64,000 bases of DNA. Origin: Bifidobacterium lemurum (lineage in GTDB: Bacteria > Actinomycetota > Actinomycetes > Actinomycetales > Bifidobacteriaceae). Position numbers and translations under genes: made by a program. Shown piece after piece: positions 31,131-53,370 of the stretch. The notes under the pieces were generated by a model that saw only the letters and a program-made list of their open reading frames with translations, had not been told where the DNA came from and did no database searches. The DNA lies in assembly GCF_014898175.1 (NCBI RefSeq), contig NZ_CP062948.1:744001-808000 (forward strand), given 5' to 3'. Within the stretch, counting starts at the first letter, position 1. Each line of letters opens with the position of its first letter.

Positions 31131-31196
31131 ATTTTTTGTACATTCGATGCACTATTTTTTGTACATCCGATGTCGAAATTTTTGTACATCCAATGT
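31131..31196 (+). promoter_or_regulatory. Three iterons with exact 23-bp spacing before the AAA/DUF4143 gene
   Basis: The 19-bp unit ATTTTTTGTACATTCGATG recurs as ATTTTTTGTACATCCGATG and as a third copy, AATTTTTGTACATCCAATG. The GTACAT cores are at 31138, 31161 and 31184, an exact 23-bp period. A possible -10 box TATACT (31196-31201) abuts the third copy, and the start codon follows at 31209. The array is A/T-rich in a GC-rich genome. It looks like a repressor or activator array covering the promoter; the binding protein is unknown. The rest of the 31010-31208 gap shows nothing. Confidence 0.6.
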
Positions 31197-31208
31197 ATAC
31201 TTTAGATT

Positions 31209-36762: not shown

Positions 36763-37839
36763 CTACCGCGCCAACCGGTCGTATTCGGCGCGGGTGAGCG
36801 AGACGACGCCGCCGTGTTTGGTGTGCTCGGCGAGAGCGAAGTCGGGATCGTCCAGCAAACGCCAGCCCGCGTCCAGATCATTGGTGACCATCGGACGGTA
36901 GCCGATCGAGGGGATCACATCCACCAGCAGATACCATTCGTCGCCCGCTCCCCCATCGTTGTGATGGTTGGCGAACACGGCCGGCCCCTCCACGCCGCCC
37001 GGCTCGCCGCCGGCGTATTCCGCGCCGATGCGCGTCTGGACCGTGGTCCATTCCGCGCCCCGCTCCCACCAGCGTTTCGCGTCGGTGCGGTCCATCCAGA
37101 TGCCGTTGCCGTGGCTGTTGTCCTTGGTGATGCGGTAGGTGCGCGTGCCGCCGTCCGGCAGCGGCCGTTGAATCATGGTGGTGTCGATGGAGTTGCCGCC
37201 GGTGTCGATGAACACGCCGCCGTATTCGTACGTTTCGTTGGTGAAGTCGCGTGTCGCGCCCCACAGCACGGTGTCGTGCGAGTCCGGATCGGTGTGTCCG
37301 GGGTCGTCGTCGGCGAACGGGCGGGACGACCAGTACATCACGAACGCGCCGCGCCCGCCGTCATGGCCGGCCGCGCGATCCTCGTCGTAGTAGTCCGGCA
37401 CCCACAGGCATTCGCAGGCCCAGGCCATGCCGAGTTCCATGCGCGAGCCGTCGGCCCTGCGCGACACGTCGAGTGTGCGGGGACCGCGCCAATGCAGCAG
37501 ATCGTCGGATTCCCAGATGATGAGGTCGGTGCTGCCGTGGTGGCTCCAGTAGCCCCAGTTGTCGTTGCCCTCCTCGGCGTCGAGTCCGCCGAACACACGC
37601 AGGTCCGTGGCGATGATGTACCACACGCCGGTTTCCGGGTTGCGGATGATATGCGGGTCGCGCACGCCGGTGGTGCCGATGTCCGAGGTGAGCACCGGCT
37701 CGCCGCCGTTGAGCGGAATCCAACGGCGCGGGTCGTCGCCGTCGGAGCGGTCCAGATAGATGCGCTCGGCATAGCCGTGCGGGTCCTCGCGGAAGTGGAC
37801 CATCAGGTAGCCGTACTTCTCGTCGTTCCGTGTATTCAC
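36763..37839 (-). CDS. GH43-family glycoside hydrolase
   Basis: This is a 358-aa enzyme of the GH43 five-bladed propeller family, active on arabinofuranosyl or related linkages. The catalytic base is in TTGVRDPHIIRNPETG and the general acid probably in GVEGPAVFANHH. The start is GTG at 37839 (followed by NTRNDEKYGYL), with AGAAAGGAAC before it. There is no signal peptide, so it acts on imported oligosaccharides in the cytoplasm. It is the last gene of the importer operon (lipoprotein, two permeases, DUF624 protein, this enzyme). The subfamily is not assigned. Confidence 0.85.
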   Translation of the reverse strand: MNTRNDEKYGYLMVHFREDPHGYAERIYLDRSDGDDPRRWIPLNGGEPVLTSDIGTTGVRDPHIIRNPETGVWYIIATDLRVFGGLDAEEGNDNWGYWSHHGSTDLIIWESDDLLHWRGPRTLDVSRRADGSRMELGMAWACECLWVPDYYDEDRAAGHDGGRGAFVMYWSSRPFADDDPGHTDPDSHDTVLWGATRDFTNETYEYGGVFIDTGGNSIDTTMIQRPLPDGGTRTYRITKDNSHGNGIWMDRTDAKRWWERGAEWTTVQTRIGAEYAGGEPGGVEGPAVFANHHNDGGAGDEWYLLVDVIPSIGYRPMVTNDLDAGWRLLDDPDFALAEHTKHGGVVSLTRAEYDRLAR

Positions 37840-37892
37840 AATCGTTCCTTTCTGTTTCGAAGCGCCATGCGCTCCAGCGGACCGAACCGATG

Positions 37893-38540
37893 TCAGCGCG
37901 GTTCCAAAACGTGCACGTCCATGCCCGGCAGTCTGCCGAAGGAGTAGATCGCGCCCATCGCGGCGAACGCCGGCGCCGCGACGCCGAAGGCCACCATCAG
38001 CCCCGGCCATGTGTAGTACGCCCATACCACCAGCAGCAACAGCAGGGCCAGCATCAGAGAACACAGCGGGCGGGCCACCACCATCTGGAACGAGGTGCGC
38101 ACCTGCCACCAGAGCCGCTCGTCGAAGTTCACATGGACGGCCCACGACATCATCACGAACAGGCCGTAGACGACGTTGAGCACCAGCAAGGCTCCGGAGA
38201 CCCCATAGCCGACCGGGCCGAGGTCGTTCCAATTCATCAGCCAGTATTCCCAGATCAGCACCAGCCAGACAACGAACTGCGGGTAGCCCAACGCGTTGGC
38301 GGGCTTCAGCTCCGCCTTCCATGCCTGGTGGAACACAGACCATGTCTGTTTCATCGTCCACGAACGGTCGTCGACATCCAACAGCCATGTGCGATAGGTG
38401 GCGTACGCGGCGGCGATCGAGGGGAAGAAACCCGCCACGACCAACCCCATCAGCATATGCGCGATGAAGGCGATGTGAACGACCACAACCATCATGATCA
38501 TACGGCAGATGAATTCATAACCGACGGCGAATCGCTTCAT
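37893..38540 (-). CDS. DUF624 (YesL-like) membrane protein
   Basis: This 215-aa protein has five or six hydrophobic segments and belongs to the DUF624/YesL family, typical starts being YEFICRM with a following FFPSIAAAYATYR. Members are regularly found beside oligosaccharide ABC importers (for example yesLOPQ in Bacillus), but their function is unknown. AAAGGGGACC precedes the ATG. It lies 53 bp before the GH43 gene and about 150 bp after the second permease, so it is in the same unit. Confidence 0.87.
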   Translation of the reverse strand: MKRFAVGYEFICRMIMMVVVVHIAFIAHMLMGLVVAGFFPSIAAAYATYRTWLLDVDDRSWTMKQTWSVFHQAWKAELKPANALGYPQFVVWLVLIWEYWLMNWNDLGPVGYGVSGALLVLNVVYGLFVMMSWAVHVNFDERLWWQVRTSFQMVVARPLCSLMLALLLLLVVWAYYTWPGLMVAFGVAAPAFAAMGAIYSFGRLPGMDVHVLEPR

Positions 38541-38689
38541 CGCGGTCCCCTTTCAGTGGAGCGGCATACCTTATGCAAACCTTTATAGGCGATGTCGTGG
38601 AGATGGTCCGGATATGAACCGGCGCTGCCGCCGTACGGGGTACGGTCACCAGCGCCGGGGTCGGAGTTCCGCAGGACGGTATCCGTCGA

Positions 38690-39649
38690 TCAGCCCTTCA
38701 CGGCGCCGATCATGACGCCCTTGGTGAAGTACTTCTGGATGAAGGGGTAGATGACCAGAAGCGGCAGGGTGGAGACGATGATGATGCCGTACTTGATCGA
38801 ATCGGCCAGCTGCTGGCGTTCGATCATCGACTGGCCGTTGCTGCTGCCGCCACCGGACGTGGTGACCTGGTTGGCGAGCAGGATGTTCTGCAGGATCACC
38901 TGCAACGGCTGCTTGTTCTGGTTCCTGATGTAGATCAGGCCTGTGAAGTAGTCGTTCCAGTGGCCCACGAAGTAGTACAGCGCGATCACGCCGATGATGG
39001 CGCTGGACAGCGGCAGCACGATCTTGATGAAGTATCCGAAATACCCCAGGCCATCGATCTGCGCGGCGTCATGCAGCTCCTCGGGGATCGAGGATTCGAA
39101 GAAGGAGCGTACGATGATCACGTTGAACACGGACACGGCGCCCGGCAGGATGAACACCCACATGGTGTCGAGGATGTTCAGATCCTTCATCAGCAGGTAG
39201 CCCGGGATCAGGCCGCCGGAGAAGAACATGGTGAAGGTGAACAGGAACAGGATGACGCGGCGGGGCTTGAACTCCGCGCGGGACAGCGCGAAGCCCACCG
39301 GCAGCGTGACCAGCATGTTGACCAGCGTGCCGACCACGGAGTACAGGATGGTGTTGCGGTAGCCGATCCAGATGCGCGGCTCCTGCAGCACCTTGACGTA
39401 GCCGTTGAAATTGATGCCCTTCGGGAAGAGCACCACCTCGCCTTGGGAGACGAGTCCGGCGTTCGAGAAGCTGGCGATCACCACGAACCACAGCGGGTAG
39501 ATGGTCACGAACACCACGGCCACGATGATGGCCGCGATGATGATGTCGACGATCCAGTCGCCAAGCGTCTTGTGCTGACGGACCTTGGGGTTCCACGGGA
39601 TATCTGCGCTGGAGGCCTTGGCGGCGAGCGTGGGGGCGGATGCGCTCAT
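38690..39649 (-). CDS. Carbohydrate ABC transporter permease (MalG/LplC type)
   Basis: This is a 319-aa permease with six membrane helices, similar to LplC/YtcP. The cytoplasmic coupling loop EELHDAAQIDGLGYFGYFIKI is near residue 205. The C-terminal PFIQKYFTKGVMIGAVKG is the hallmark of this family. The ATG at 39649 is preceded by AGAAAGGATC. It is 35 bp downstream of the partner permease and forms the heterodimeric channel with it. The ATPase is not encoded here; bifidobacterial importers of this class generally share an MsmK-type ATPase encoded elsewhere. Confidence 0.93.
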   Translation of the reverse strand: MSASAPTLAAKASSADIPWNPKVRQHKTLGDWIVDIIIAAIIVAVVFVTIYPLWFVVIASFSNAGLVSQGEVVLFPKGINFNGYVKVLQEPRIWIGYRNTILYSVVGTLVNMLVTLPVGFALSRAEFKPRRVILFLFTFTMFFSGGLIPGYLLMKDLNILDTMWVFILPGAVSVFNVIIVRSFFESSIPEELHDAAQIDGLGYFGYFIKIVLPLSSAIIGVIALYYFVGHWNDYFTGLIYIRNQNKQPLQVILQNILLANQVTTSGGGSSNGQSMIERQQLADSIKYGIIIVSTLPLLVIYPFIQKYFTKGVMIGAVKG

Positions 39650-39684
39650 GGCTGATGATCCTTTCTTGACGTTTCGTTTCCGCA

Positions 39685-40668
39685 TCAGAAGATGCTGGTG
39701 TTGGACGCCCGCTTGGCGACTTGGTTCGCGATGATCAGGAACAGGAAGTTGATGACCGTGTTGAAGAGGTTGATGGCCGTCGAATAACTGTATTGGTTGG
39801 ACACCAGACCCATCTTGTAGACGAAGGTCGAAAGCACCTCGGAGCCGGACAGGTTCAGCGAGTTCTGCATCAGGTAGACCTTTTCGAATCCGACGCCGAG
39901 CACGGAGCCCATGTTCAGGATCAGCAGGATGCCGCAGGTGGGCAGGATCGTGGGGATGTCCACGTAGCGGATCAGCTGGAGGCGGCCCGCGCCGTCCATC
40001 TTGGCGGCCTCGTACAGCGAGGTGTCCACGCCGGCGAGGGCGGCCAGATAGATGATGGAGTTCCAGCCGCAGTGCTGCCAGACTTCGGTGATCCAGTAGA
40101 TCGGGGCGAAGGCGTCCGGGTTGCCCAGAATGTTCGTCTCCCCCAGGAAACGGCCGATCATGCCGGAGTTCGGCGCCAGGAAGATGTTGATCATCGAGAC
40201 GATGACCACGGTGGAGATGAAGTGCGGCATGTAGGTGATGGTCTGCACGAAGGATTTGGTGCGCTTGCCGGCGATCTGGTTGATGAGCAGGGCCAGGATG
40301 ATCGGCGCGATGAAGCCCAGCACCAGCGTTCCCAGGGAGACGCGGATCGTGTTGATGATCAGGTCGTCGAACTGCGGGGAGTTGAAGAACTGGATGAAGT
40401 ATTTGAATCCGACGAACTTGCCGCCCGAAAGGCCCGCGCCGGGCACGAACTCGCGGAATGCGAGCTGGATGCCGTACATGGGCACGTAGGCGAACAGGCC
40501 GACGAAGATCATCGCGGGCAGGGACATCAGCCACAGCTGCCAGTAGCGCGACATGTGGTTGCCGATGCGGGCCATCAGAGACGGCCGCTGTGCTGTGCTG
40601 TCGCCCGCCTGCCGCGATGCGGAGGACAGATCTTTGGCGCCGTGCGCGCCTCGTGTTGCGGAAGCCAT
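39685..40668 (-). CDS. Carbohydrate ABC transporter permease (MalF/LplB type)
   Basis: This is a 327-aa permease with a hydrophilic N-tail (about 45 residues) and six helices. The coupling loop DTSLYEAAKMDGAGRLQLIR is near residue 225 and the start of the core is MSLPAMIFVGLFAYVPMYGI. It matches the LplB type, partner of the LplC-like permease next to it. GAGGGAAGG precedes the ATG at 40668. It lies about 200 bp after the binding-protein gene; that gap contains a hairpin-prone stretch that may lower permease levels relative to the lipoprotein. Confidence 0.93.
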   Translation of the reverse strand: MASATRGAHGAKDLSSASRQAGDSTAQRPSLMARIGNHMSRYWQLWLMSLPAMIFVGLFAYVPMYGIQLAFREFVPGAGLSGGKFVGFKYFIQFFNSPQFDDLIINTIRVSLGTLVLGFIAPIILALLINQIAGKRTKSFVQTITYMPHFISTVVIVSMINIFLAPNSGMIGRFLGETNILGNPDAFAPIYWITEVWQHCGWNSIIYLAALAGVDTSLYEAAKMDGAGRLQLIRYVDIPTILPTCGILLILNMGSVLGVGFEKVYLMQNSLNLSGSEVLSTFVYKMGLVSNQYSYSTAINLFNTVINFLFLIIANQVAKRASNTSIF

Positions 40669-40874
40669 GGATATCCTTCCCTCAATGAAATGCGATCTTT
40701 GGATTGCGACAAGTGCGTCGCGCGATGCCGCGCGATGCGACGGCGTCGATTGCCCGGGCCGGGTGGCACAGGGCCCGATTGCCGTTCGCACGTCTGTGTT
40801 GGCGAGGGAATCGGGCCCTGTTATGTTGTTTTCGGTTATGCGCGGGATGGGGTCATCGCGCGCTCATGCTCGGC

Positions 40875-42461
40875 TCAGGAGGCGGCGATGGTGTCGTCGT
40901 AGGCCTTCTGCCACAGCTCGATGTTCTGGTCGAGACCGCTGCTCTTGAGCGTTTCGATGTACTCGTTCCAGGTCTCGTCGGTCAGGCCGCCGTCCTGGAT
41001 CCAGGTGGAGATGAGCGGCAGGGCGTAGTTCCAGATGGTCGAGTTGTTGTTGGAGACGGTGGTGTTGTCCTCGGCGCTCAGACGGGTGTACATCGGGATC
41101 AGGTCGTTCTCGCCGATGTGGGACTGCTGGGTGGCGTACACGCTGCCATCCTCCTCGGCCAGCACCTTGTCCTGGTCGCCGGTGACGGACATGTCCTCGC
41201 GCACCCAGGTCAGGCCGCGGTCGGCCAGGCCGAAGGTGGACAGGTCGTCCTGGAACTGGATCACGTTGTAGACGCCGTCGCCGGTGTTCTCGATGTAGGT
41301 GTCGAGATCGCCGTAGTAGGACTCCATGGAGATGTCCGGATCGAGGAAGGTGTCGATGATCTTGAGCGCGGCGGCCTTGTGGGCCTCGTCCAGGCCGGCC
41401 GCGACCGCGGCGCCGTTGTAGATGTCCTGGAACTGCGGCTCCCAGGTGGTCTCCTCATAGGAGACGCCCGGGGCGGCGGGGACCTCGATGGAGACGTACT
41501 GGTCGGAGAGGTCGCCGAAGTTGCCGGTGTTCCAGCCGAAGATCATGCCGACCTTGGCGGTCACGCCGTCGGAGGAGATGTCGGCGGTGTTCAGCGAGGA
41601 GTCGCGGGTGAGCACGTCGGCGGGCATCAGGCCGGCCTCGATCAGGGAATGGTAGTACTCGATGACGGAGCGGAAGTTGTCGGTGAGCATCCAGTTGTTC
41701 ACCACGCCGTCCTTGACGTACATGCCCTGGGAGCCGGCGGAGGTGATCACCTGGGTGTTGATGCCGGTGCCGTTGAGCAGCAGGAACGGGCTCCACCAGC
41801 CGAATCCGGCGGTGCCGAGCTGGTTGATCAGCATCGGAACCTCGTCGGCCTCGCCGTTGCCGTTCGGATCCTGCTCCTTGAAGGCGGTGAGCACTTCGGT
41901 CAGCTCGTCCCAGGTGGTCGGCACCTCAAGGCCGAGCTTGTCGAGCCAGGACTTGTTGATCATGAGGTTCTGGCCGGAGGACCACTTGGCGCCGGAGGCG
42001 TTGCCGTAGTCGGAGGGCACCTGCCAGACGTGGCCGTCGAGGTCGGAGCCGAACATCTTGGCTTCCGGCACGGCTTCGAAGTATTCCTGCACGTTCGGCA
42101 TGGAGTCGAGGTCGTCGGAGAGATCCTCCCAGTAGTTGTACTGGGCGAAGTTGTCGGCGTTGTAGCCCCAGATGGTGATGTCGGCGACGTCGCCGCTGGC
42201 CAGCACGGTGGAGGCCTGCTGCGCCCACTGGGTGTCGAGGATCTCCTCCCATTCGATCTCGCAGTCGCAGGCGGCTTCCAGATCCTGGGTGAGCTTCATG
42301 TCCGCGGCTTCGATCTGGGTGCTGCGCTTGATCAGGCTGATCTTGATGATCGGCTTGCCATCGGCGTTCGTGGCGTTGCCGTCGCTGCCGCAGGCCGACA
42401 GGCTGACGGTGCCCATCATGGCCAGTGCGATGGCGGCCGCAAGGCTCTTCTTGATCTTCAT
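40875..42461 (-). CDS. Sugar ABC transporter substrate-binding lipoprotein
   Basis: This 528-aa extracellular solute-binding protein of family 1 (LplA type) is anchored as a lipoprotein (lipobox LSAC, Cys24). It would capture oligosaccharides for the two permeases downstream. The length and lack of similarity to maltose-type binding proteins suggest a larger oligosaccharide. Two LacI-type operator sites lie 105-150 bp before the start, and GAG-rich GGAGAAACC precedes the ATG. The surrounding GH43 genes point to arabino-oligosaccharides as ligand. The transporter class is firm; the ligand is inferred. Confidence 0.92.
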   Translation of the reverse strand: MKIKKSLAAAIALAMMGTVSLSACGSDGNATNADGKPIIKISLIKRSTQIEAADMKLTQDLEAACDCEIEWEEILDTQWAQQASTVLASGDVADITIWGYNADNFAQYNYWEDLSDDLDSMPNVQEYFEAVPEAKMFGSDLDGHVWQVPSDYGNASGAKWSSGQNLMINKSWLDKLGLEVPTTWDELTEVLTAFKEQDPNGNGEADEVPMLINQLGTAGFGWWSPFLLLNGTGINTQVITSAGSQGMYVKDGVVNNWMLTDNFRSVIEYYHSLIEAGLMPADVLTRDSSLNTADISSDGVTAKVGMIFGWNTGNFGDLSDQYVSIEVPAAPGVSYEETTWEPQFQDIYNGAAVAAGLDEAHKAAALKIIDTFLDPDISMESYYGDLDTYIENTGDGVYNVIQFQDDLSTFGLADRGLTWVREDMSVTGDQDKVLAEEDGSVYATQQSHIGENDLIPMYTRLSAEDNTTVSNNNSTIWNYALPLISTWIQDGGLTDETWNEYIETLKSSGLDQNIELWQKAYDDTIAAS

Positions 42462-42564
42462 GGTTTCTCCTTACTTGCTTTGGCGGTAAAACCAAAATCC
42501 TTCGTCGAACCACCGGCCCTGTCCAAGGACTTCCTTGTCGGCGATCATATCGCCACAGCTCCGA

Positions 42565-42612
42565 TTTCTAACGTTGTAATTTTGATTATACAACTATTTT
42601 CATCGTTGTACA
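42565..42612 (-). promoter_or_regulatory. Paired LacI-type operators, importer operon
   Basis: Two matches to a TTACAAC/GTTGTAA palindrome occur. TTCTAACGTTGTAA is centred at 42572/42573 and TTTCATCGTTGTACA at 42604/42605, 32 bp apart. They are the A/T-rich core of the 42462-42763 gap, upstream of the binding-protein gene. They share the motif seen at 43810, 45073 and 47246 and are best assigned to the LacI protein encoded at 43952. Confidence 0.65.
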
Positions 42613-42675
42613 AATCAGCGGGACACGCTGTGTTGCTCTTCGGTTTTCGCGTGTTCCGCCCGGACGGAAGGCCCG

Positions 42676-42740
42676 GGCGGAATCACTGTATCGGGGCGGA
42701 ATCATTGCGTTCCGGACGGAATCATTGCGTTCCGGCCGAA
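42676..42740. repeat. Short tandem repeats after the GH43_26 gene
   Basis: Three steps of about 19-20 bp (CGGAATCACTGTATCGGGG, then GCGGAATCATTGCGTTCCG twice with small changes) follow a hairpin of TTCCGCCCGG with CCGGGCGGAA at 42655-42682. They lie just beyond the stop of the GH43 gene at 42764. Role unknown; perhaps part of a terminator region. Confidence 0.5.
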
Positions 42741-42763
42741 ACGAATCCTCCGGCAGCGCCGCC

Positions 42764-43780
42764 TCAGGCGGCCAGCATCGCGCCGGCGCGCGGGCCTCCG
42801 TCCGCGGGCAGCACGTCGGTGGTGGCGGGGGTCCACACCACATCCGGCTCGGGAACGCCGAAGTCGGGGCCGGATTCGGTCCAGCCCACCACGCCGACGC
42901 GGGCATGGCGGTTCGGATCGAACAGCGGATCGCCTTTGATGTCGGTGTAGTTGCGGCAGTGGTAGATCATCAGATCGGTCTCGCCGTCCTCCGCCTTGAC
43001 GAAGGAGTTGTGGCCAGGGCCGTACTGGCCGTTCTCGGCGCAGGTCTTGAACACCGGCACCGGGCTCTTCGTCCAGCTGGCCGGGTCGAGCAGATCGGCG
43101 TCGCGATCGGCGGTGAGCAGGCCCACGGCGTACGGCACGCCGGTGCCGGAGGCCGAGTAGGTGATGTAGATCTTATCGCCGTGGAAGAGGAAGGCGGGCC
43201 CCTCGTTGACGAGGAAGTCGATGCATTCCCAGTCGTATTCGGGCTTGGTGAGCATCACCGGCTCGCTGTCCAGCGTCCACGGATTGGCCATTTTGGCGAT
43301 GTAGAGGTTGGAGTTGCCGGGGATGTCGTAGTCCTTCTGCGCCCAGACGAGGTACTGCACGCCGTCGATCACCTCGGTGGTGGCGTCCAGCGAGAACGAA
43401 TCCATCGGCGTGACGATCCGCCCCTTCTCCACCCAGTTGTCGGTGGTGGGGTCGTCGTCGGTGTTCTCCAGCACGAACATGCGGTGCGTGGGCATGCCGT
43501 TGGGCTCGAACTCGCGCTCGGCCGCGGCGAAGTAGATGTACCACGCGCCGTTCACGCGGTGCAGCTCGGGCGCCCAGATGTATTTGCTCATCGGGCCGGA
43601 CTCATGCTTGCGCCACACCACGGTTTCGGGCGCGGACTGCAATCCGTTGATCGTCGACGCGTGACGAATCGCGATGCAGTTGTATTCGGGGTCGGAACCG
43701 GTGAAGTAGTACTCGCCGTCCACTTTGACCACCCAAGGATCGGCTCGTTGTAGCACTACCGGATTGTTGTAAACAGCCAT
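42764..43780 (-). CDS. GH43 (subfamily 26-like) exo-alpha-1,5-L-arabinofuranosidase
   Basis: This 338-aa enzyme matches the GH43_26 pattern. The N-terminal VVLQRADPWVV gives the catalytic base Asp14. IWAPELHRVNGAWYIYFAA, FSLDATTEV (the pKa-modulating Asp), and FLVNEGPAFL (the general acid Glu) follow, then YGPGHNSFV and DPNRHARVG. Characterised members release arabinose from the ends of alpha-1,5-arabinan oligosaccharides. No signal peptide is present, so it is cytoplasmic. GGGAG precedes the ATG at 43780. Two LacI-type operators lie 30-70 bp upstream. It is its own transcription unit between the LacI terminator and the importer operators. Confidence 0.88.
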   Translation of the reverse strand: MAVYNNPVVLQRADPWVVKVDGEYYFTGSDPEYNCIAIRHASTINGLQSAPETVVWRKHESGPMSKYIWAPELHRVNGAWYIYFAAAEREFEPNGMPTHRMFVLENTDDDPTTDNWVEKGRIVTPMDSFSLDATTEVIDGVQYLVWAQKDYDIPGNSNLYIAKMANPWTLDSEPVMLTKPEYDWECIDFLVNEGPAFLFHGDKIYITYSASGTGVPYAVGLLTADRDADLLDPASWTKSPVPVFKTCAENGQYGPGHNSFVKAEDGETDLMIYHCRNYTDIKGDPLFDPNRHARVGVVGWTESGPDFGVPEPDVVWTPATTDVLPADGGPRAGAMLAA

Positions 43781-43809
43781 GTTCTCCCTCAATCCTTTGC
43801 GTTTCAGAG

Positions 43810-43848
43810 TTTACAACGTTGAATATAACAGATTTACAACGTTGAAAC
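43810..43848 (-). promoter_or_regulatory. Paired LacI-type operators before the GH43_26 gene
   Basis: TTTACAACGTTGAA occurs twice, centred at 43817/43818 and 43840/43841, exactly 23 bp apart. Both sit 30-70 bp before the GH43_26 start codon, in a position to block its promoter. Confidence 0.7.
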
Positions 43849-43867
43849 AAGTCGGCGCGTTAACGCG

Positions 43868-43908
43868 TAAAAAAGAGAGGCCGATGCGTCGCCACGCATC
43901 GGCCTCTC
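43868..43908 (-). terminator. lacI-type regulator terminator
   Basis: A perfect 15-bp stem, GAGAGGCCGATGCGT with ACGCATCGGCCTCTC, has a 4-nt loop. On the minus strand it is followed by TTTTTT. It ends the transcription unit of the regulator gene 44 bp past its stop. Confidence 0.88.
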
Positions 43909-43951
43909 CACACAAAACGCCGCCGGCCCATTCCGACCGGCGTAAGCATCG

Positions 43952-45031
43952 TCAGTACTGCACCATCCTGTCCGGCAGCGGTCGGGTCGACTGACGCACC
44001 ACCAAACTCGACGTGACCTTGCGGAACACCGGGGCGTCTCCGGGCGTCCCACCGAACGGCGCGACGCCGTCGATGCGGTCCTTGAGCACCTTCACCGACA
44101 GTCTCGCCACCGCCTCCAGGCCGGGGGAGATCGAGGTCAGCGCGGGCGTGAGGTACTGCGAATCGTCGGAATTGTCGAAGCCGATCACCGAGATGTCGTC
44201 GGGAATCCTCAGATCGTGCATCTGGATCGACTGCATCATGCCGGAAGCGAGCATGTCGTTCAACGCCACCACGCCATCGGGACGGACGCCGCTGTCCAGC
44301 AACTCGTTCATCGCACGCACGCCATTGGCGCGATGCCACATGCCGGCGGGGACCACCAGACTCTCGTCGAAGGGAACGCCGGCCTCATCCAAGGCCTCCT
44401 TGTATCCCTGGAAACGCAGCGCCGCGGAACCGACCCGCTCCCCGGGATGCACGCCCACCACGGCGATGCGCCGGCATCCGGTCTGCAGCAGGTACGCCGT
44501 GGCGCGTTTCGCGCCCTCGGTGTTCTCGGTGGCGATATGGTCCACCTTGTCGGTGAAGATGCGCTCCCCGAGCAGCACCAGCGGATAATCCACATCGAGC
44601 TGATCGATGTCGTCCGGCCCCAGCTCCAACGGACTGAAGATCAAACCGTCCATCATGGCCTGCTGCGAACCGTGCAGCGCGTCGATCTCGCCTTCGCGCG
44701 AATACAACGTCGGCTCCACGATCACGCGCATGCCAAGTTTTTTGGCCTCATCGATCACCAACGAACTGAGCTGCGCGAAATACGGCATGGCCAAATCGGG
44801 AATCGCGAGCGCGATGATGCCGGTCTGTCCCGTGCGCAGGTTGCGCGCGGAAACGTTCACGGTATAGCCGAGATCGGCGATGGCCTTATTGACCTTGTCA
44901 CGAGTGGCGTCGGAGACGAACTCGTAGTCGTTGACCACATTGGACACGGTTTTGATCGACACTCCGGCCGCCTTGGCGACCTCCCGCATCGTCACCACGT
45001 GCTGTTCGCCGGAATTGGATCTTCTCGGCAT
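43952..45031 (-). CDS. LacI-family transcriptional regulator of the arabinan locus
   Basis: This is a 359-aa LacI-family repressor. The HTH is at residues 14-36 (TMREVAKAAGVSIKTVSNVV), followed by the hinge helix region (NVSARNLRTGQTGIIALAI). The sugar-binding core ends SDDSQYLTPALTSI and the C-terminus carries VTSSLVVRQSTR. It lies 27 bp downstream of the large GH43 gene on the same strand. An operator-like site overlaps the end of that gene, which would let the protein control itself. The matching palindromes before three other units make it the likely local regulator, released by an arabino-sugar. The effector is inferred. Confidence 0.93.
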   Translation of the reverse strand: MPRRSNSGEQHVVTMREVAKAAGVSIKTVSNVVNDYEFVSDATRDKVNKAIADLGYTVNVSARNLRTGQTGIIALAIPDLAMPYFAQLSSLVIDEAKKLGMRVIVEPTLYSREGEIDALHGSQQAMMDGLIFSPLELGPDDIDQLDVDYPLVLLGERIFTDKVDHIATENTEGAKRATAYLLQTGCRRIAVVGVHPGERVGSAALRFQGYKEALDEAGVPFDESLVVPAGMWHRANGVRAMNELLDSGVRPDGVVALNDMLASGMMQSIQMHDLRIPDDISVIGFDNSDDSQYLTPALTSISPGLEAVARLSVKVLKDRIDGVAPFGGTPGDAPVFRKVTSSLVVRQSTRPLPDRMVQY

Positions 45032-45058
45032 CTCTCGTCTCCTTCAGAGTCTCTTCAC

Positions 45059-47215
45059 TTATGACAAGGTGATGTTCATCGTTATACAAGCATAGTCCGG
45101 ATGCAGCTCCTCGGTGGACTGCAGGTCGAGGACGGGCATGCCCTCCGCGGACCAATGCACGCGGCGCACCTGGGCGTCGCGGCCGCCGTAGCGCCCGCCC
45201 TCGTATTCGGCGTTGTGGAACACGTAGATGAGGTTGCCGTCCTCGTCGTGAGACCACATGCCGTGTCCGGTGCCGAGCTGCCATTCGCCGTTGTACATGC
45301 CGGACTTCTGCAGCGGGTAGGCGAGTTTGGTCCACGTGGCGGGGTCGAGCAGGTCGGTGTTCTCGCCGGCCGGGGCGGTCACCAGACCGGTGGTGTAGTC
45401 GATGCCGACCAGCGAACCCGAGTAGATCAGGAAGATGCGTCCGTCGTGCACCACCGCGTTCGGCCCCTCGGCGATCGCGTTGTCCCACGCGTATTCCGGC
45501 ACGATGATCTGACGCGGCTTGGAGGTCAGGCGGTTCGGCCGCTTGGGGTCGAAACCCGCGATCCATACGCTGCCCACCTGCTGCCAGGCGTAGTACCAAC
45601 GGCCGGAATCGACGATCACCGTCATGTCGAGCGATATGCGCTGCACGGGGTTGAGCGCCTCGCCATCGGGGCCGAGAATCGGTTCGGGAACCGTCCAATT
45701 GCCTGGCTCGCGCGGGTCGAGGTCGCGTCCGTCGGCATCCTGCCTGAGCTGCATGATATGGCAGCTTCCCGTCCACATATCCGGTTTGCCGGCGCGGTCG
45801 TTGGGCGAGCCGTCGGGGTTGGCGCTCGGCCCGTCGAAGCAGGGCATGAACAGTATGGACAGACGTCCGTCGATCACGTGCAGCTCCGGCGCCCAGAAGC
45901 AGCCGGTCATCGCGCGGCCTTCGGAGTTGAGGTCGCCGCGCACCAGCAGGTCGACCTCACGCTCGCGGCCGCCTGCCGCATCGGAGAGCTGGGCGATGGA
46001 CGAGGCGACGCGCAACGGCATATGGGTGCGCCCGCCGCGCGGGTCGATGCAGTTGCCGTCCTCGTCCTCGGTGGCGATGAACAGGAACAGCGGCTCTCCG
46101 TTCCATTTCCAGGCGAACACCGACGGATCGGCGCGTTCCACCGCGAACGGCACGGGGTAGACGGTCTGACGGATGCGGCCGTGGATGGCGCGGCGATCCC
46201 CCGCGACCAGACGTCCGGCGGCGAGGTCGTCGTTCAGACGGCCGATCTCGTCGGCGTCCCAATCCACCGCGCGCATGGCCGACGAACCGTCGGAGTACTT
46301 GAGTTCGGCGCACACGTTGCGCAACGTCCATACGGCGGCGCGGGCCTCCTCGCCGCGCAGCGAGGCCGGTATCGAGTACGGGCGCACGGACGCGCCGGTG
46401 TTGTAGATACGGCCGAAGCGCGCGATCAGCGTGCGCGCCTCCTTTTCGGTGATGGCGATGCTGTTGCCGGGCACCACGTCGGCGATGCCGTAGACGTCGG
46501 CGGCGTCCGCGCACGCACCGGCCGGATCGCGGCCGGCCGCCGCGGCATCCAACGCCTCCGTATCATCGGCCACGGCAAGCGTGCGTCCGACGGCCTCGGC
46601 GATGTCGCGCACAACCGCGATGCGCGCGACGCCGTCGTCGGAACGCCAACGGATACGGTATTCGCCGGCGTTCTGGTCGAATTCCACGCTCGGCTTGTTC
46701 ACGCCGGCGTCGGTGTCGAGCACCACCTGGCCGAGCTGTTCGAAATCGGTCAGATCGCGGCTGACGGCCAGCAGGAACGACGAACGCTCCGACCCGTCGG
46801 GATCGCCGCCGCGCGCGGTGCGCGTCGCCGCGATGCCGAAACCGCCGTCGGCCAGACGGAACAGGTAGGGGTCGCGCAGGCTTTTGAGCACGATGTCGAC
46901 TTCCGGCATCACCGCGCCGTAGGCGACCGCCGGGCTTGCCTCACGGCCGTCGTCGTAGGGGTCCACGCCGAATCGGGCGGCCGCCACGCAGGCGGCGCGC
47001 GCGTCTCCCGCAGGATTCCCGTCGGCGCGCGAGCAGGCGGCGCTCGGCACTCCGGCGGCGAAGAAGATGCCGTAGTTCTCGTTCAACGGCATCCAGTCGC
47101 CACAGGCGCGCGAGCGCAGCGCGAGGTGCATGCTCAGGGCGATATCGGCGTTGTTCGCCTCTTCGCGCTTGGTGGGCTTGCAGGTATAGCACAGCAGGGA
47201 GGTGGTGCCCAACAT
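45059..47215 (-). CDS. Large GH43-family arabinan-active hydrolase
   Basis: This is a 718-aa GH43 protein, about twice the size of a single-domain member. The N-terminal block LGTTSLLCYTCKPTKREEAN starts a propeller blade with RDPYLFRLADGGFGI. A domain of about 150 residues (about 215-370) interrupts it, and the propeller resumes with WAPELHVIDGRLSILFMP, ISLDMTVI and IAEGPNAVV (probable general acid). There is no signal peptide. GGAAGGATATC precedes the ATG. It is divergent from the lipoprotein arabinanase and shares its operators. The role is probably cytoplasmic arabinofuranosidase; the linkage is unknown. Confidence 0.85.
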   Translation of the reverse strand: MLGTTSLLCYTCKPTKREEANNADIALSMHLALRSRACGDWMPLNENYGIFFAAGVPSAACSRADGNPAGDARAACVAAARFGVDPYDDGREASPAVAYGAVMPEVDIVLKSLRDPYLFRLADGGFGIAATRTARGGDPDGSERSSFLLAVSRDLTDFEQLGQVVLDTDAGVNKPSVEFDQNAGEYRIRWRSDDGVARIAVVRDIAEAVGRTLAVADDTEALDAAAAGRDPAGACADAADVYGIADVVPGNSIAITEKEARTLIARFGRIYNTGASVRPYSIPASLRGEEARAAVWTLRNVCAELKYSDGSSAMRAVDWDADEIGRLNDDLAAGRLVAGDRRAIHGRIRQTVYPVPFAVERADPSVFAWKWNGEPLFLFIATEDEDGNCIDPRGGRTHMPLRVASSIAQLSDAAGGREREVDLLVRGDLNSEGRAMTGCFWAPELHVIDGRLSILFMPCFDGPSANPDGSPNDRAGKPDMWTGSCHIMQLRQDADGRDLDPREPGNWTVPEPILGPDGEALNPVQRISLDMTVIVDSGRWYYAWQQVGSVWIAGFDPKRPNRLTSKPRQIIVPEYAWDNAIAEGPNAVVHDGRIFLIYSGSLVGIDYTTGLVTAPAGENTDLLDPATWTKLAYPLQKSGMYNGEWQLGTGHGMWSHDEDGNLIYVFHNAEYEGGRYGGRDAQVRRVHWSAEGMPVLDLQSTEELHPDYACITMNITLS
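45073..45088 (-). promoter_or_regulatory. LacI-type operator overlapping the large GH43 gene end
   Basis: TGTTCATCGTTATACA, centred at 45080/45081, resembles the site at 42604. It lies about 50 bp before the regulator's start codon, inside the last codons of the upstream GH43 gene. It may allow an internal promoter for the regulator. Confidence 0.45.
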
Positions 47216-47245
47216 CGTGATATCCTTCCGGATTGACCTTTTCCT

Positions 47246-47288
47246 TTACAACGTTGTACACTATAGCGCGAGTTACATCGTTGTACAA
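47246..47288. promoter_or_regulatory. Paired LacI-type operators in the divergent GH43 promoter
   Basis: TTTACAACGTTGTACA (centre 47253/47254) contains the perfect palindrome TACAACGTTGTA. TTACATCGTTGTACAA (centre 47280/47281) follows, 27 bp away. They sit between the large GH43 gene and the lipoprotein GH43 gene, so one protein bound here could control both directions. This is the best-conserved site of the set. Confidence 0.75.
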
Positions 47289-47337
47289 ATTTGACAACAC
47301 GCAGAACAACTCACATCAACGAAGGGGAGAAGAGCAT

Positions 47338-48948
47338 ATGGCACCCATCACGGCACTCCGCCACGCCGCCACCACCGTCCTCGCAGCCGGCATGCTGGTC
47401 GGCGCGCTCGCCGGATGCACACAAGGCATCGGCGGATCCGCAGCGGACGGCATCGGAGAGGCGGCCAATCAGGCCAACACGGCGACCAGCCGCGACACCG
47501 TCACCGAACAATCCGGCATCGCCCGCGTTTCCGTCCACGACCCATCGGTCGTCAAAGCCAACGGCACCTACTATGTGTTCGGATCCCACCGCGCATGGGC
47601 CAAAAGTGACGATCTGGTCAACTGGACCACTTTCGAAAACAACCTGAGCACCGATTACGACGACATCCTCGGCGGAATCTGGGACGAATGGTCCAAGCAG
47701 ACCGCCAATCCCGAACTCACCGGCAACATGTGGGCCCCGGACGTGGTGTGGAACGACACCATGAAGAAATGGTGCATGTACATGTCGGTCAACGGCATCA
47801 ACTACCGCTCCACCATCGTGCTGCTCACCGCCGACGACATCGAAGGCGACTGGACCTATGTGGGGCCCGTCGTCTATTCGGGGTTCAACAACAACACCGT
47901 CGAGCGCACCGACGTGGGCGAAGTGCTCGGCGACGGCGCGGACATCACCCGATACCTCAGCCCGACCGACACGGAGATCAACGCCATCGACCCGTGTGTG
48001 AAAACCGACGAGAACGGCGATATGTGGATGACCTTCGGATCGTGGTTCGGCGGCATGTGGATGCTCAAACTCGATCCCGCCACCGGCCTGCGCGACTACG
48101 GAACCACCTACGAGACCGTCGCCGACCGGTCCGACGCCTACTACGGCATCAAATTGGGCGGAGGCTACGGCAATTCCGGCGAGGGCTCCTATCTGCTGCA
48201 TACCAACGGCTATTGGTATCTTTTCGCCTCCTACGGCGCGTTGCAGCAGGAGGGCGGATACCAGGTGCGCATGTTCCGTTCCGAAGACATCACCGGCCCC
48301 TACGTCGACGAGCATGGCAACGCCGCGGTCTCCACCGAAGAGGTCAACGGCAATTGGACCGGCGACACCGGCATCCGCCTGATGAGTTCGATCCAATGGA
48401 GCGGCAACGACAACGCCGACATCGAAGTCGCCCAAGGGCACAACTCCGCCATGGTCGACGATGACGGCAACGCCTACATCGTCTACCACACCCGATTCTC
48501 CGGACGCGGCGAGGAGCACGAGGTGCGCGTGCGCCAACTGCTGCCGACCTCCGACGGATGGCTGGTGGCCGCGCCCTATGAGTTCGTCGGCGCCGTCGCC
48601 GACACATCCGGCTACGCGCGGGAGAATATCGTCGGCGACTATGAGCTGGCCACATTGTCCAAACACACGTATTTCAAAGGACAAACGAATCCGGCCGACA
48701 AGGACGGCACCGAATACATCGGCGTGGACCGGCCCGTAAACATCACACTGAACGCCGACGGCACCGTCTCGGGCGACCAGACCGGCACATGGGAGGCCGC
48801 GGACGGATCGAACCAGGTGACCCTCACCCTCGGCGACGTGGTCTACACCGGCGACTTCGCCAAGCTGCCGCGCGACGTGGACGGCAAGGAGGTCATGACC
48901 TTCACCGCCCTCGGCGACAACGTCACCATCTGGGCGTCCCAGCTCTGA
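47338..48948 (+). CDS. Surface lipoprotein endo-alpha-1,5-L-arabinanase, GH43 (Abn2-like)
   Basis: This 536-aa GH43 enzyme has a lipobox LAGC (Cys27), so it is attached to the outer face of the membrane. The propeller shows VSVHDPSVVKANGTYYVFGS (base), INAIDPCV and GEGSYLL (acid). The C-terminal segment SGRGEEHEVRVRQLLPT and a beta-barrel domain (about 445-536) match Bacillus subtilis Abn2-type endo-arabinanases. It should cut the alpha-1,5-arabinan backbone outside the cell, feeding the importer at 38690-42461. GAAGGGGAGA precedes the ATG at 47338. A pair of LacI-type operators lies directly upstream and a terminator hairpin follows at 49107. Confidence 0.9.
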   Translation: MAPITALRHAATTVLAAGMLVGALAGCTQGIGGSAADGIGEAANQANTATSRDTVTEQSGIARVSVHDPSVVKANGTYYVFGSHRAWAKSDDLVNWTTFENNLSTDYDDILGGIWDEWSKQTANPELTGNMWAPDVVWNDTMKKWCMYMSVNGINYRSTIVLLTADDIEGDWTYVGPVVYSGFNNNTVERTDVGEVLGDGADITRYLSPTDTEINAIDPCVKTDENGDMWMTFGSWFGGMWMLKLDPATGLRDYGTTYETVADRSDAYYGIKLGGGYGNSGEGSYLLHTNGYWYLFASYGALQQEGGYQVRMFRSEDITGPYVDEHGNAAVSTEEVNGNWTGDTGIRLMSSIQWSGNDNADIEVAQGHNSAMVDDDGNAYIVYHTRFSGRGEEHEVRVRQLLPTSDGWLVAAPYEFVGAVADTSGYARENIVGDYELATLSKHTYFKGQTNPADKDGTEYIGVDRPVNITLNADGTVSGDQTGTWEAADGSNQVTLTLGDVVYTGDFAKLPRDVDGKEVMTFTALGDNVTIWASQL

Positions 48949-49074
48949 CCGACCACAGCCGGGCGTGACGCGGAACACGTTTCGTCCATTCCGGTCAATC
49001 CCGCCCCAGCCGGCCGCGTGCTGACGGCTCAATCCGCCAGGTGTCCCGCCCCGGCCACGACACACGCCCGCCTA

Positions 49075-49110
49075 CGGGACTTTCCGACATCAGAAGTCGG
49101 AAAGTCCCGT
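49075..49110. repeat. Strong hairpin before the second arabinanase gene
   Basis: A perfect 14-bp stem, CGGGACTTTCCGAC with GTCGGAAAGTCCCG, has a 7-nt loop. It lies 127 bp past the lipoprotein gene stop and overlaps the next hairpin by three bases, so the two are alternative folds at the junction. Confidence 0.6.
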
Positions 49111-49148
49111 GAAACACGCCATACGAACATGTTTCACGGTCCTTTTTG
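49107..49148 (+). terminator. CCGTGAAACA hairpin with T-run, copy outside the array
   Basis: CCGTGAAACA (49107-49116) and TGTTTCACGG (49130-49139) form a 10-bp stem with a 13-nt loop, followed by TCCTTTTTG. It fits an intrinsic terminator of the lipoprotein arabinanase unit. The same stem with the same 13-nt loop length occurs three times in the array at 53188-53346, without the T-run. Confidence 0.7.
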
Positions 49149-49206
49149 ACGACCCACCGTCGGAGGGGACCGTGAACCGGTCCACCCGCATCCAAGGAAA
49201 CATCCC

Positions 49207-50973
49207 ATGTCAGAACACACCAGCGAAACCGTCGGAGAAACAGTCAGCGAGACAGTCAGCGACAACGTCGGAACCGCCGAACGCCCAGCCGAATATCCGC
49301 TGGCCGATGGCCGCGTCGCCATCCACGACCCCGCCATCGTCGAAGAGAACGGCGTCTACTACATCTTCGGCACGCACCGCCGCTTCGCGAAAAGCCGCGA
49401 CCTCGTGCGCTGGGAACGGTTCGACAACAATCTGAGCCGCGACCCGCACGCCCTGCTCGACGAGATCTGGAGCGACTGGCCCAGCCAGCCCGAAAACCGC
49501 GAACTCGAAGGCAACACGTGGGCGCCGGACGTGATCTGGAACGAGACCATGCGCCGATGGTGCATGTATATGTCGGTGAACGGCGCGAATTTCCGCTCCG
49601 TCATCGTGCTGCTCACCGCCGAGCATCTGAACGGCGACTGGACCTACGCGGGACCGGTCGTCTACTCCGGCTTCACACCCGACAACGTGCGACTCACCGA
49701 CGTGCCACGCGTGCTGGGAGACGAGGCCAGCGGCGATCTGGCGCGTTATCAGTCGCTCAAGGACACGCGCATCAACGCGATCGACGCGACGCCGATCCTG
49801 TGCGAGCACGGCGAGATGTGGATGAGCGTCGGCTCGTGGTTCGGCGGCGTCTGGATGTTCAGACTCGACCCCGCCACCGGCCTGCGCGACTACACGACGC
49901 GCTATCCGCTCGTCAAGGACGCCGCCGACCCGTACTACGGCGTGAAGGTGGCCGGCGGCTACTGGAATTCCGGCGAAGGCTCGTATTTCGTGCGCGAGAA
50001 CGGGTGGTGGTATCTGTTCATGGCATACGGCTGGCTCGGCCGCGAGGGCGGCTATCAGATCCGCCTGTTCCGTTCGAAGAACCTTGTCGGGCCGTATTTC
50101 GACCAGAACGGCAATCCCGCGATTTCCGCAGGCGAGATTCCCAACAACCACACCAGAGGAACCGGCATCCGTCTCACCTCGTCGGTCAAATGGAGAGGCG
50201 GACCCGCGTGCGACGAGACGGTCGAAGTCGCGCAGGGGCACAATTCCGTGTTGCGGCGCGGTTCGGACGGGCGGCTCTTCCTCGTCTACCACACGCGGTT
50301 CATCGCCCGCGCCGAAGAGGATTACGAGACGCATATCCGCGAGCTGCTGCCTACGCCCGATGGATGGCTGGCCGCCGCCCCCTACGAATACCAAGGCGCT
50401 CCGGCAATGGCACCGACAGCCCGGGATCAACTGGCCGGCGAGTATGAGATCGTGCTGCATGATCCGCATACGTATTTCAACGGCAAGCGGCGCGGGGACG
50501 GCTCTTGGGAGGGCGTCAACCTGCCGCGCGCCGTCACCTTGCAGGAGGACGGCCGCGTGACCGAAGGCGGCGTGGTGTCGTTCCACGACACGTCCGACGC
50601 GAACCTGCCGCGCGAGACGGACGGACCGGTCACCTGCGGATCATGGCGTCCGCTCGGCGCATCCGGCACGGTCGCAGGCCCCACTCCCAGCGAGACCGCA
50701 GGCTCCACTCCCAGCGAGACCGCCCATCCCGACGCCTGCAATCCGCAGAGCAATACCGTCGCGAACATCGCATCCGCCGCATCCGCCGCATCCCGACCGT
50801 TGCGCGAATCCATGTGGAGACCGTCCTGCTGTCGCGCGGAAATGGCAATCACCGTGGACGACGTGACCTACACGGGCGTGTTCGCCGTGCTCCCCCGCGA
50901 AACCGACGGCCGCCCCACGCTCACCTTCACCGCCATCGGCGGCAACCAGGCGATCTGGGGCGCGAAGATCTAA
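49207..50973 (+). CDS. Cytoplasmic Abn2-like GH43 arabinanase
   Basis: This is a 588-aa paralogue of the lipoprotein arabinanase at 47338. It has the same propeller motifs (VAIHDPAIVEENGVYYIFGT, INAIDATP, GEGSYFV) and ends ARAEEDYETHIRELLPTPDG plus a C-terminal beta-barrel. It lacks any signal sequence; the N-terminus is a Ser/Thr/Glu-rich stretch (MSEHTSETVGETVSETV). The barrel domain holds an insert of about 60 residues (from TPSETAGSTPSETAHP), absent from the paralogue. AAGGAAAC precedes the ATG. It would shorten imported arabino-oligosaccharides. No LacI-type operator is visible upstream, so its control may differ. Confidence 0.87.
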   Translation: MSEHTSETVGETVSETVSDNVGTAERPAEYPLADGRVAIHDPAIVEENGVYYIFGTHRRFAKSRDLVRWERFDNNLSRDPHALLDEIWSDWPSQPENRELEGNTWAPDVIWNETMRRWCMYMSVNGANFRSVIVLLTAEHLNGDWTYAGPVVYSGFTPDNVRLTDVPRVLGDEASGDLARYQSLKDTRINAIDATPILCEHGEMWMSVGSWFGGVWMFRLDPATGLRDYTTRYPLVKDAADPYYGVKVAGGYWNSGEGSYFVRENGWWYLFMAYGWLGREGGYQIRLFRSKNLVGPYFDQNGNPAISAGEIPNNHTRGTGIRLTSSVKWRGGPACDETVEVAQGHNSVLRRGSDGRLFLVYHTRFIARAEEDYETHIRELLPTPDGWLAAAPYEYQGAPAMAPTARDQLAGEYEIVLHDPHTYFNGKRRGDGSWEGVNLPRAVTLQEDGRVTEGGVVSFHDTSDANLPRETDGPVTCGSWRPLGASGTVAGPTPSETAGSTPSETAHPDACNPQSNTVANIASAASAASRPLRESMWRPSCCRAEMAITVDDVTYTGVFAVLPRETDGRPTLTFTAIGGNQAIWGAKI

Positions 50974-52964: not shown

Positions 52965-53153
52965 CGTTCCTCCTTTGCTTGAGCGTCACGCCGGCCTTCC
53001 CGGGCCGGCTCATAGTCGTTTACACGCACGAAACATGCGTAACTCCCCATCGTACAGCTCATCGGCCCCAAACAACGCCGACCGTCTCATCACGCCCATC
53101 GCCCGGGCACGGTCTCCCGCCCATCCCACGGCGCGGACTTTCCGCCCATCCCC

Positions 53154-53370
53154 ACGGCACAATCCAGCACACCCCCGTCGGAAGATCCCGTGAAACATCG
53201 CATCCCGACCTGTTTCACGGCACAATCCGGTATACCCCCGTCAGAAGATCCCGTGAAACATCGCTTCCCGACCTGTTTCACGGCACAATCCGGTATACCC
53301 CCGTCAGAAAATCCCGTGAAACATGCCATATCTCGATGTTTCACGGCGCAATCCGACGGGGGTATCACAG
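53154..53370. repeat. 63-bp-period array of three CCGTGAAACA hairpins
   Basis: Three direct repeats have an exact 63-bp period. In each, CCGTGAAACA pairs with TGTTTCACGG across a 13-nt loop (stems start at 53188, 53251 and 53314). The spacer reads CACAATCCGGTATACCCCCG with small changes. A fourth, inverted spacer (GACGGGGGTATCAC) closes the array. Period 63 is 21 codons, which keeps a false open frame running, and is close to six helical turns. It fills the 52965-53426 gap between leuA and a metallophosphoesterase gene. The arms resemble separated halves of the ParB site TGTTTCACGTGAAACA. No CRISPR character. Confidence 0.85.

Follow-up and report, generated by a model that had tools for sequence, protein, structure and literature searches.

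How the use of arabinan is controlled in Bifidobacterium lemurum, and whether a single LacI-family protein is responsible for this control, is the question raised by a stretch of 64,000 nucleotides (referred to here as the window; bases 744001-808000 of the 2,965,103-base (2.97 Mb) genome), in which genes for arabinan-degrading enzymes, an ABC importer and one lacI gene (43952-45031) occur together with seven operator-like palindromes. Very probably, as judged from sequence comparison, this locus represents the regulon of AauR for alpha-arabino-oligosaccharides which was predicted in 2018 in 21 Bifidobacterium species (PMC5928203), so that the kind of control is already known from that prediction and is not new. 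Site positions, conservation, co-occurrence, promoter geometry and codon constraint, all of them read from the sequence, form the basis from which we infer binding, repression, the inducer, autoregulation and the cell location of the enzymes.

Predicted operators of the arabinan locus

All seven palindromes pointed out in an earlier sequence-only reading of this DNA were found, and the distances of 23, 27 and 32 bp which it gave for the pairs turned out to be exact. Two predicted operators belong to the importer promoter (downstream site at 42566-42579, score 22.7 with the weight matrix described below; upstream site at 42598-42611, overlapping the -35 element, score 27.8), two to the promoter of the GH43_26 gene (downstream site at 43811-43824, overlapping the end of the -10 element, score 26.5; upstream site at 43834-43847, score 26.2) and two are common to a divergent pair of GH43 genes (47246-47259, score 24.5; 47273-47286, score 25.4), while a single, weaker one precedes lacI (45074-45087, score 19.2). 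Six of the palindromes correspond to TTACAACGTTGTAA with at most three mismatches, with 0.33 being expected and none of 100 shuffled sequences reaching six. A weight matrix that was trained on 60 sites from 11 loci of other species, none of them from the window, placed the seven sites at ranks 1 to 7 of the 64 kb window (27.8 to 19.2), followed by a score of 8.0 at rank 8; seven sites of the window scored at least 10, compared to an average of 0.23 and a maximum of 2 in 200 Markov sequences. Five loci (L053-L055, L057 and L058) were left out of the training as near copies of L052. As the training sites were hand-picked from positions before orthologous genes with at most three mismatches to the consensus of the sequence-only reading, and this consensus thus guided their choice, the matrix test is not blind. 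Its cleanest part is given by the seventh site, which has 5 mismatches to TTACAACGTTGTAA and still takes rank 7. A count of 10-mers in 61 upstream regions of relatives, which overlap and were found by means of the window proteins, returned the same core at the top (CAACGATGTA / TACATCGTTG). Palindromes bound by LacI dimers would have the form TTACAWCGWTGTAA, which is, as part of the whole explanation, regarded as highly likely.

The site described as lying in front of lacI is indeed present, but it overlaps with the 3′ end of the coding sequence of the 718-amino-acid (718-aa) GH43 gene (stop at 45059), where it falls into the last codons TGT ATA ACG ATG AAC. It could hence be a mere conserved protein sequence (I/V-T-M near the C-terminus of the GH43 protein), with lacI being read through from the GH43 gene. 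This is considered unlikely, although the site is fixed in the protein and within coding sequence, its distance to lacI ranges from about 42 to 150 bases, some relatives show scores of just 7 to 10, and in L022 and L052 the gene carries an A-ending codon at this position without any site scoring above 0. What speaks against it is codon usage. In 21 of 27 genes the codon at the site, which stands for I, V, T or A, has A as its last base, whereas A-ending codons make up 6.7% of all codons for I, V, T, P, A, G, S, L and R, and the column of the site is the highest of 277, with the next one at 33%. For this comparison, 46 loci minus three without a GH43 gene end (L026, L039 and L040) yielded 43 genes, which were reduced to 27 sharing less than 93% identity. 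Of the six genes lacking the A-ending codon, two (L023 and L027) are followed, in the gap ahead of lacI, by a similar but weak site (8.3 and 7.6), the other four are not. Furthermore, PMC5928203 counts aauR among its own regulon members in 17 genomes. As the excess of A-ending codons suggests, in much of the genus the DNA at this site appears to be kept for reasons beyond the encoded protein, and an operator is the simplest reading.

Co-occurrence of motif and lacI gene

Relatives of the LacI protein with 73-90% identity are encoded in 32 genomes besides that of B. lemurum (33 of 112 genus genomes including it), the next best matches being at 52%. The exact motif GTACAACGATGDAA was found in 23 of the 112 genomes, namely in 23 of the 33 with the lacI gene and in none of the 79 without it. 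The motif has 36 matches, 34 of them no farther than 6 kb from lacI and the remaining two 15.5 and 86 kb away. Sites, mostly in pairs, precede the same genes in the named relatives (16 named loci that encode a close relative of the LacI protein, 15 from Bifidobacterium and one from Bombiscardovia). Both observations support the earlier suggestion that one LacI protein in the middle of the locus runs a local regulon. In a phylogenetic tree the window protein and the proteins of 16 named loci fall into one clade with a support of 96/93; the paralogue branches are long and the AauR clade alone was used. A search for the LacI protein on plasmids yielded no match of 60% identity or more, the best one having 48.9%. 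Seven of the 33 genomes with the gene (G056, G063, G064, G017, G066, G046 and G075) contain a second LacI of 46-52% identity in opposite orientation within about 10 kb of aauR, as do the loci L048 and L050.

It is very improbable that the palindromes are operators of another LacI-family protein of the genome, with the local LacI being a bystander. The B. lemurum genome does encode two other LacI proteins with 40-41% identity (E below 1e-60), one of which stands beside similar palindromes (910631-910790 of the genome). Yet the motif follows the local lacI gene across the genus and clusters around it, and the other LacI has its similar palindromes next to its own operon. These three palindromes (positions 15632-15791 of L063), which resemble GTACAACSTTGTAC and score 12.5, 15.0 and 20.7, are located before a GH36/ABC/GH31 operon, and close relatives of the LacI of that operon adjoin the aau locus in L047 and L059.

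Within the B. lemurum genome, TWYAACGWTGNAA has six matches at five places, all in the arabinan locus (reversed control 0 and 2). The 14-base consensus with at most two mismatches occurs at 14 places, five at the locus and nine in a dispersed repeat, which agrees with a local regulon; a wider regulon in this genome was considered and rejected on the same count. Matrix scoring outside the window covered seven stretches around other matches and seven loci from the mismatch search, among which the best scores were 20.7 (at 910777), 17.1 (a copy of the repeat) and 15.0. It can practically be dismissed that the sites arose by chance or represent structural repeats of the kind of the dispersed TTACAACGCTTTAACC element: this element has the half TTACAACG in common with them, supplies the nine repeat places just mentioned and has one copy scoring near the weakest of the seven sites, but its copies lie outside the window, and in other species the seven sites are found again at the corresponding promoters. 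The element itself is an inverted repeat of about 90 bases with the ends TTACAACGCTTTAACC / GGTTAAAGCGTTGTAA (L003, L005, L010, L011 and L013); for these ends 21 matches with at most two mismatches were counted in the genome, compared to two in the reversed control.

Several points weigh against an AauR regulon controlled through these sites. The Fisher value for the co-occurrence of motif and gene (2e-16) is a guide only and overstates independence, because the genomes are related. Exact GTACAACGATGDAA is absent from ten of the 33 genomes with the lacI gene. The site before lacI is weak, and in eight of the 16 named relatives (L052-L055, L057, L058, L060 and L061) nothing before lacI scores above 0. 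At up to three mismatches, the genome contains 54 matches to the consensus per strand, compared to 36 for the reversed control, so that weak sites are not special at the level of the genome; these counts may leave space for weak distant sites. The assignment to AauR, although highly probable, was made by gene order and regulon content. Finally, the second arabinanase gene (49207) lacks a visible site, as had been stated before, with none among the top 30 matrix positions of the window lying ahead of it, and it stands behind a gap of 258 bases on the plus strand (48949-49206) with two stable hairpins of 16 and 19 pairs (RNA fold z -4.94). There is hardly any gap between the two arabinanase genes in L056 and L061, and in B. 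ramosum (L048) a site with a score of 15.9 precedes the second one. The hairpin gap (at 49106) has CCCGTGAAACA in common with a 63-bp tandem array at 53153-53355 (four matches versus 0.03 expected).

Promoter layout and proposed mechanism

In 25 of 28 promoters, a -10 hexamer (matching in at least 4 of 6 positions, including A2 and T6) begins 20 or 21 bases downstream of the first base of the upstream site. Any other offset between 14 and 32 shows such a hexamer in 0 to 3 of 28 promoters, and random positions do so in 0.7% of cases. This sample consisted of 28 upstream sites from nine relatives and the window, leaving out L052-L055, L057, L058 and L061, which are without pairs, as well as sites without the expected partner or place (e.g., L048 13377 and L047 12492). 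Within each pair, it is the upstream site that overlaps the -35 element, in the window as well as in the relatives. The start of the second site ranges from inside the -10 element (GH43_26, spacing 23-25) to five bases past it (importer of the window, spacing 30-32), and the sites of the divergent pair are spaced by 25-29 in the window and the relatives. By this sequence geometry the upstream site is apparently locked to the promoter while the second one slides, which would account for the spacings of 23, 27 and 32 bp. The promoter-like sequence of the importer reads TGTACA-16-TATAAT on the minus strand, that of the arabinanase in the window is less clear (TTGACC-18-TACACT), and a candidate lacI promoter, picked by eye, is TTGTAT-17-TGTCAT; a consensus promoter scan of the region was overall at chance level (four found versus 3.1 expected). 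For AraQ, PMC5928203 gives the rule that sites on or after the -10/-35 elements repress. Because this rule can be applied to the site positions found here, the predicted sites would repress as well. Control by AraQ itself was considered and rejected, as AraQ-like sites (TGTGAGCGCTCACA; PMC4746261) are at chance level in the window (three found versus 3.83 expected).

Taken as a whole, the following mechanism of an AauR regulon with dimer binding, promoter occlusion and release by an oligosaccharide appears highly probable. The LacI-type protein would bind the palindromes as a dimer. At the main promoters, one dimer would cover the -35 element and the spacer and a second one would sit at or just past the -10 element, by which RNA polymerase would be shut out. 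A surface lipoprotein arabinanase would cut arabinan, the ABC importer would bring in arabino-oligosaccharides, and three cytoplasmic arabinofuranosidases together with a cytoplasmic arabinanase would break these down to arabinose. The repressor would come off the DNA upon binding an imported arabino-oligosaccharide or a sugar derived from it, and the single weaker operator in the end of the upstream GH43 gene would tune lacI. Somewhat better than even are the chances of a finer layout with AauR control built into the promoter, in which the first operator includes the -35 element, the second one shifts along the start region and thereby sets strength, and the lacI operator in the last codons of an enzyme gene sets the repressor level and is kept by selection at synonymous positions in a large part of the genus.

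Comparison with known systems

PMC5928203 names aauR, abfII, abnA and aauABC as members of the AauR regulon. Correspondingly, the window contains a LacI-family regulator with adjoining genes for an ABC importer, AbfII (GH43_26), GH43 and arabinanase, and common palindromic sites before importer, abfII, abnA and aauR. Like the regulon of the BL0185 group in that publication, it combines a local LacI regulator with AbfII arabinofuranosidases, a secreted AbnA1, an intracellular AbnA2 and an AauABC importer. Unlike there, the importer unit additionally includes a GH43_22-like enzyme and a DUF624 protein, and abn2 is without a site. AauR and the AouR described in PMC4746261 probably belong to one group. 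A binding study of AauR was not found in the literature searched.

The arabinan cluster of B. longum subsp. suis ATCC 27533 (PMC10970622) likewise encodes two endo-arabinanases (531 and 581 amino acids there, 536 and 588 here), of which in both cases only the first one has a signal, GH43 arabinofuranosidases of 710 (BflsABF43A) and 344 amino acids (718 and 338 here), as well as lacI and ABC genes. The fifth enzyme differs, being a GH51 protein of 823 amino acids there and a GH43_22-like one here. In that study, the secreted endo-arabinanase, the intracellular endo-arabinanase, the debranching 710-amino-acid GH43 and an exo-1,5 GH43 were expressed and assayed, and four of the five window enzymes match these assayed enzymes by family, size and predicted location. 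The aau cluster of B. longum NCIMB 8809 (PMC6237967) has the same order of ABC genes, AbfII_2, LacI and GH43s, but unlike the window it includes an esterase gene between AbfII_2 and LacI and two more ABC genes. As rye arabinoxylan was reported to raise the expression of two GH43 genes in the aau locus of this strain, along with that of its ABC genes (PMC11318964), the trigger or substrate may be wider than arabinan alone.

Genes of the locus

The importer unit on the minus strand starts with a solute-binding lipoprotein (AauA-like, 40875-42461; PF01547, PF13416; LSAC lipobox identified by eye), followed by two ABC sugar permeases (AauB-like, 39685-40668, in a longer scanned frame of 39685-40791; AauC-like, 38690-39649; both PF00528), a DUF624 membrane protein (37893-38540; PF04854, E 4e-14) and, as last gene, a candidate for a divergent GH43_22-like alpha-L-arabinofuranosidase (36763-37839; no signal peptide by eye). 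The open frame of the latter extends to 38388, the gene start being probably at 37839. The locus had been described as containing five GH43 enzymes. This holds for four of them, as the genes at 42764, 45059, 47338 and 49207 reach the Pfam Glyco_hydro_43 (PF04616) cut-off. The 36763 gene, however, does not reach it, has no Pfam match at 0.001 and gives solely a sub-threshold GH32 match at E up to 10. Its nearest named family, via NCBIfam NF052546, is that of the GH43_22 alpha-L-arabinofuranosidase BAD_1527 (PMC11264647); as the score of 108 bits (E 5.6e-31) is below the cut-off of 500, the enzyme probably falls outside the BAD_1527 group. Its AlphaFold model (mean predicted local distance difference test score, pLDDT, 76.6) consists predominantly of strands, and the top Foldseek matches are sialidases and GH43 enzymes with a template modelling (TM) score of about 0.5, both kinds of propeller being resembled about equally.

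The remaining genes on the minus strand are the 718-aa GH43 gene (45059-47215; arabinofuranosidase of the debranching ABF43A type; PF04616 at residues 428-694; no signal peptide by eye; AlphaFold model with a mean pLDDT of 77.2), followed by lacI (43952-45031; helix-turn-helix domain PF00356 and sugar-binding domain PF13377; AauR by gene order and regulon content), and the gene of a GH43_26-type exo-alpha-1,5-L-arabinofuranosidase (AbfII_2 / ABF43B type, 338 amino acids, 42764-43780; PF04616 with E 3e-69, scanned as 42764-43792; no signal peptide by eye), which matches PDB entry 3akf, titled exo-1,5-alpha-L-arabinofuranosidase, with E 1e-107. Behind lacI lies a terminator-like hairpin of 16 pairs with a T run (43874-43909, minus strand), which has the longest stem among the nine terminator-like sites of the region (8.0 expected). 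The plus strand encodes an endo-alpha-1,5-L-arabinanase predicted to be a surface lipoprotein (AbnA1 / ABN43A type, 536 amino acids, 47338-48948; PF04616 and PF16369, scanned as 47233-48948; LAGC signal by eye; PDB 4kca, E 1e-105) and then the second endo-arabinanase (AbnA2 / ABN43B type, 588 amino acids, 49207-50973; PF04616 and PF16369; no signal peptide by eye), the two being 46% identical to each other. The araA gene is located outside the arabinan locus at 565554-566051 of the genome.

The importer genes (38690-42461) share 91-93% DNA identity with those of B. oedipodis (L059) and the GH43_26 gene 84%, compared to 73-76% for lacI, the 718-aa GH43 gene, the first arabinanase gene and the 36763 gene. 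As the identity of the importer genes exceeds that of the rest of the locus, this suggests that the importer was exchanged. Elsewhere in the window, 2.8 tandem copies of the operator-like 23-bp unit TTTTTGTACATCCGATGTACAAA are found at 31133-31197, just before an AAA_14/DUF4143 gene at 31209.

Significance

With this analysis, the raw sequence confirms a sugar regulon that had been predicted computationally. The promoter lock of the upstream site and the candidate lacI operator embedded in coding sequence are additions beyond the sequence-only reading. Once known, the switch for arabinan use helps to predict which bifidobacteria respond to plant-fibre prebiotics.

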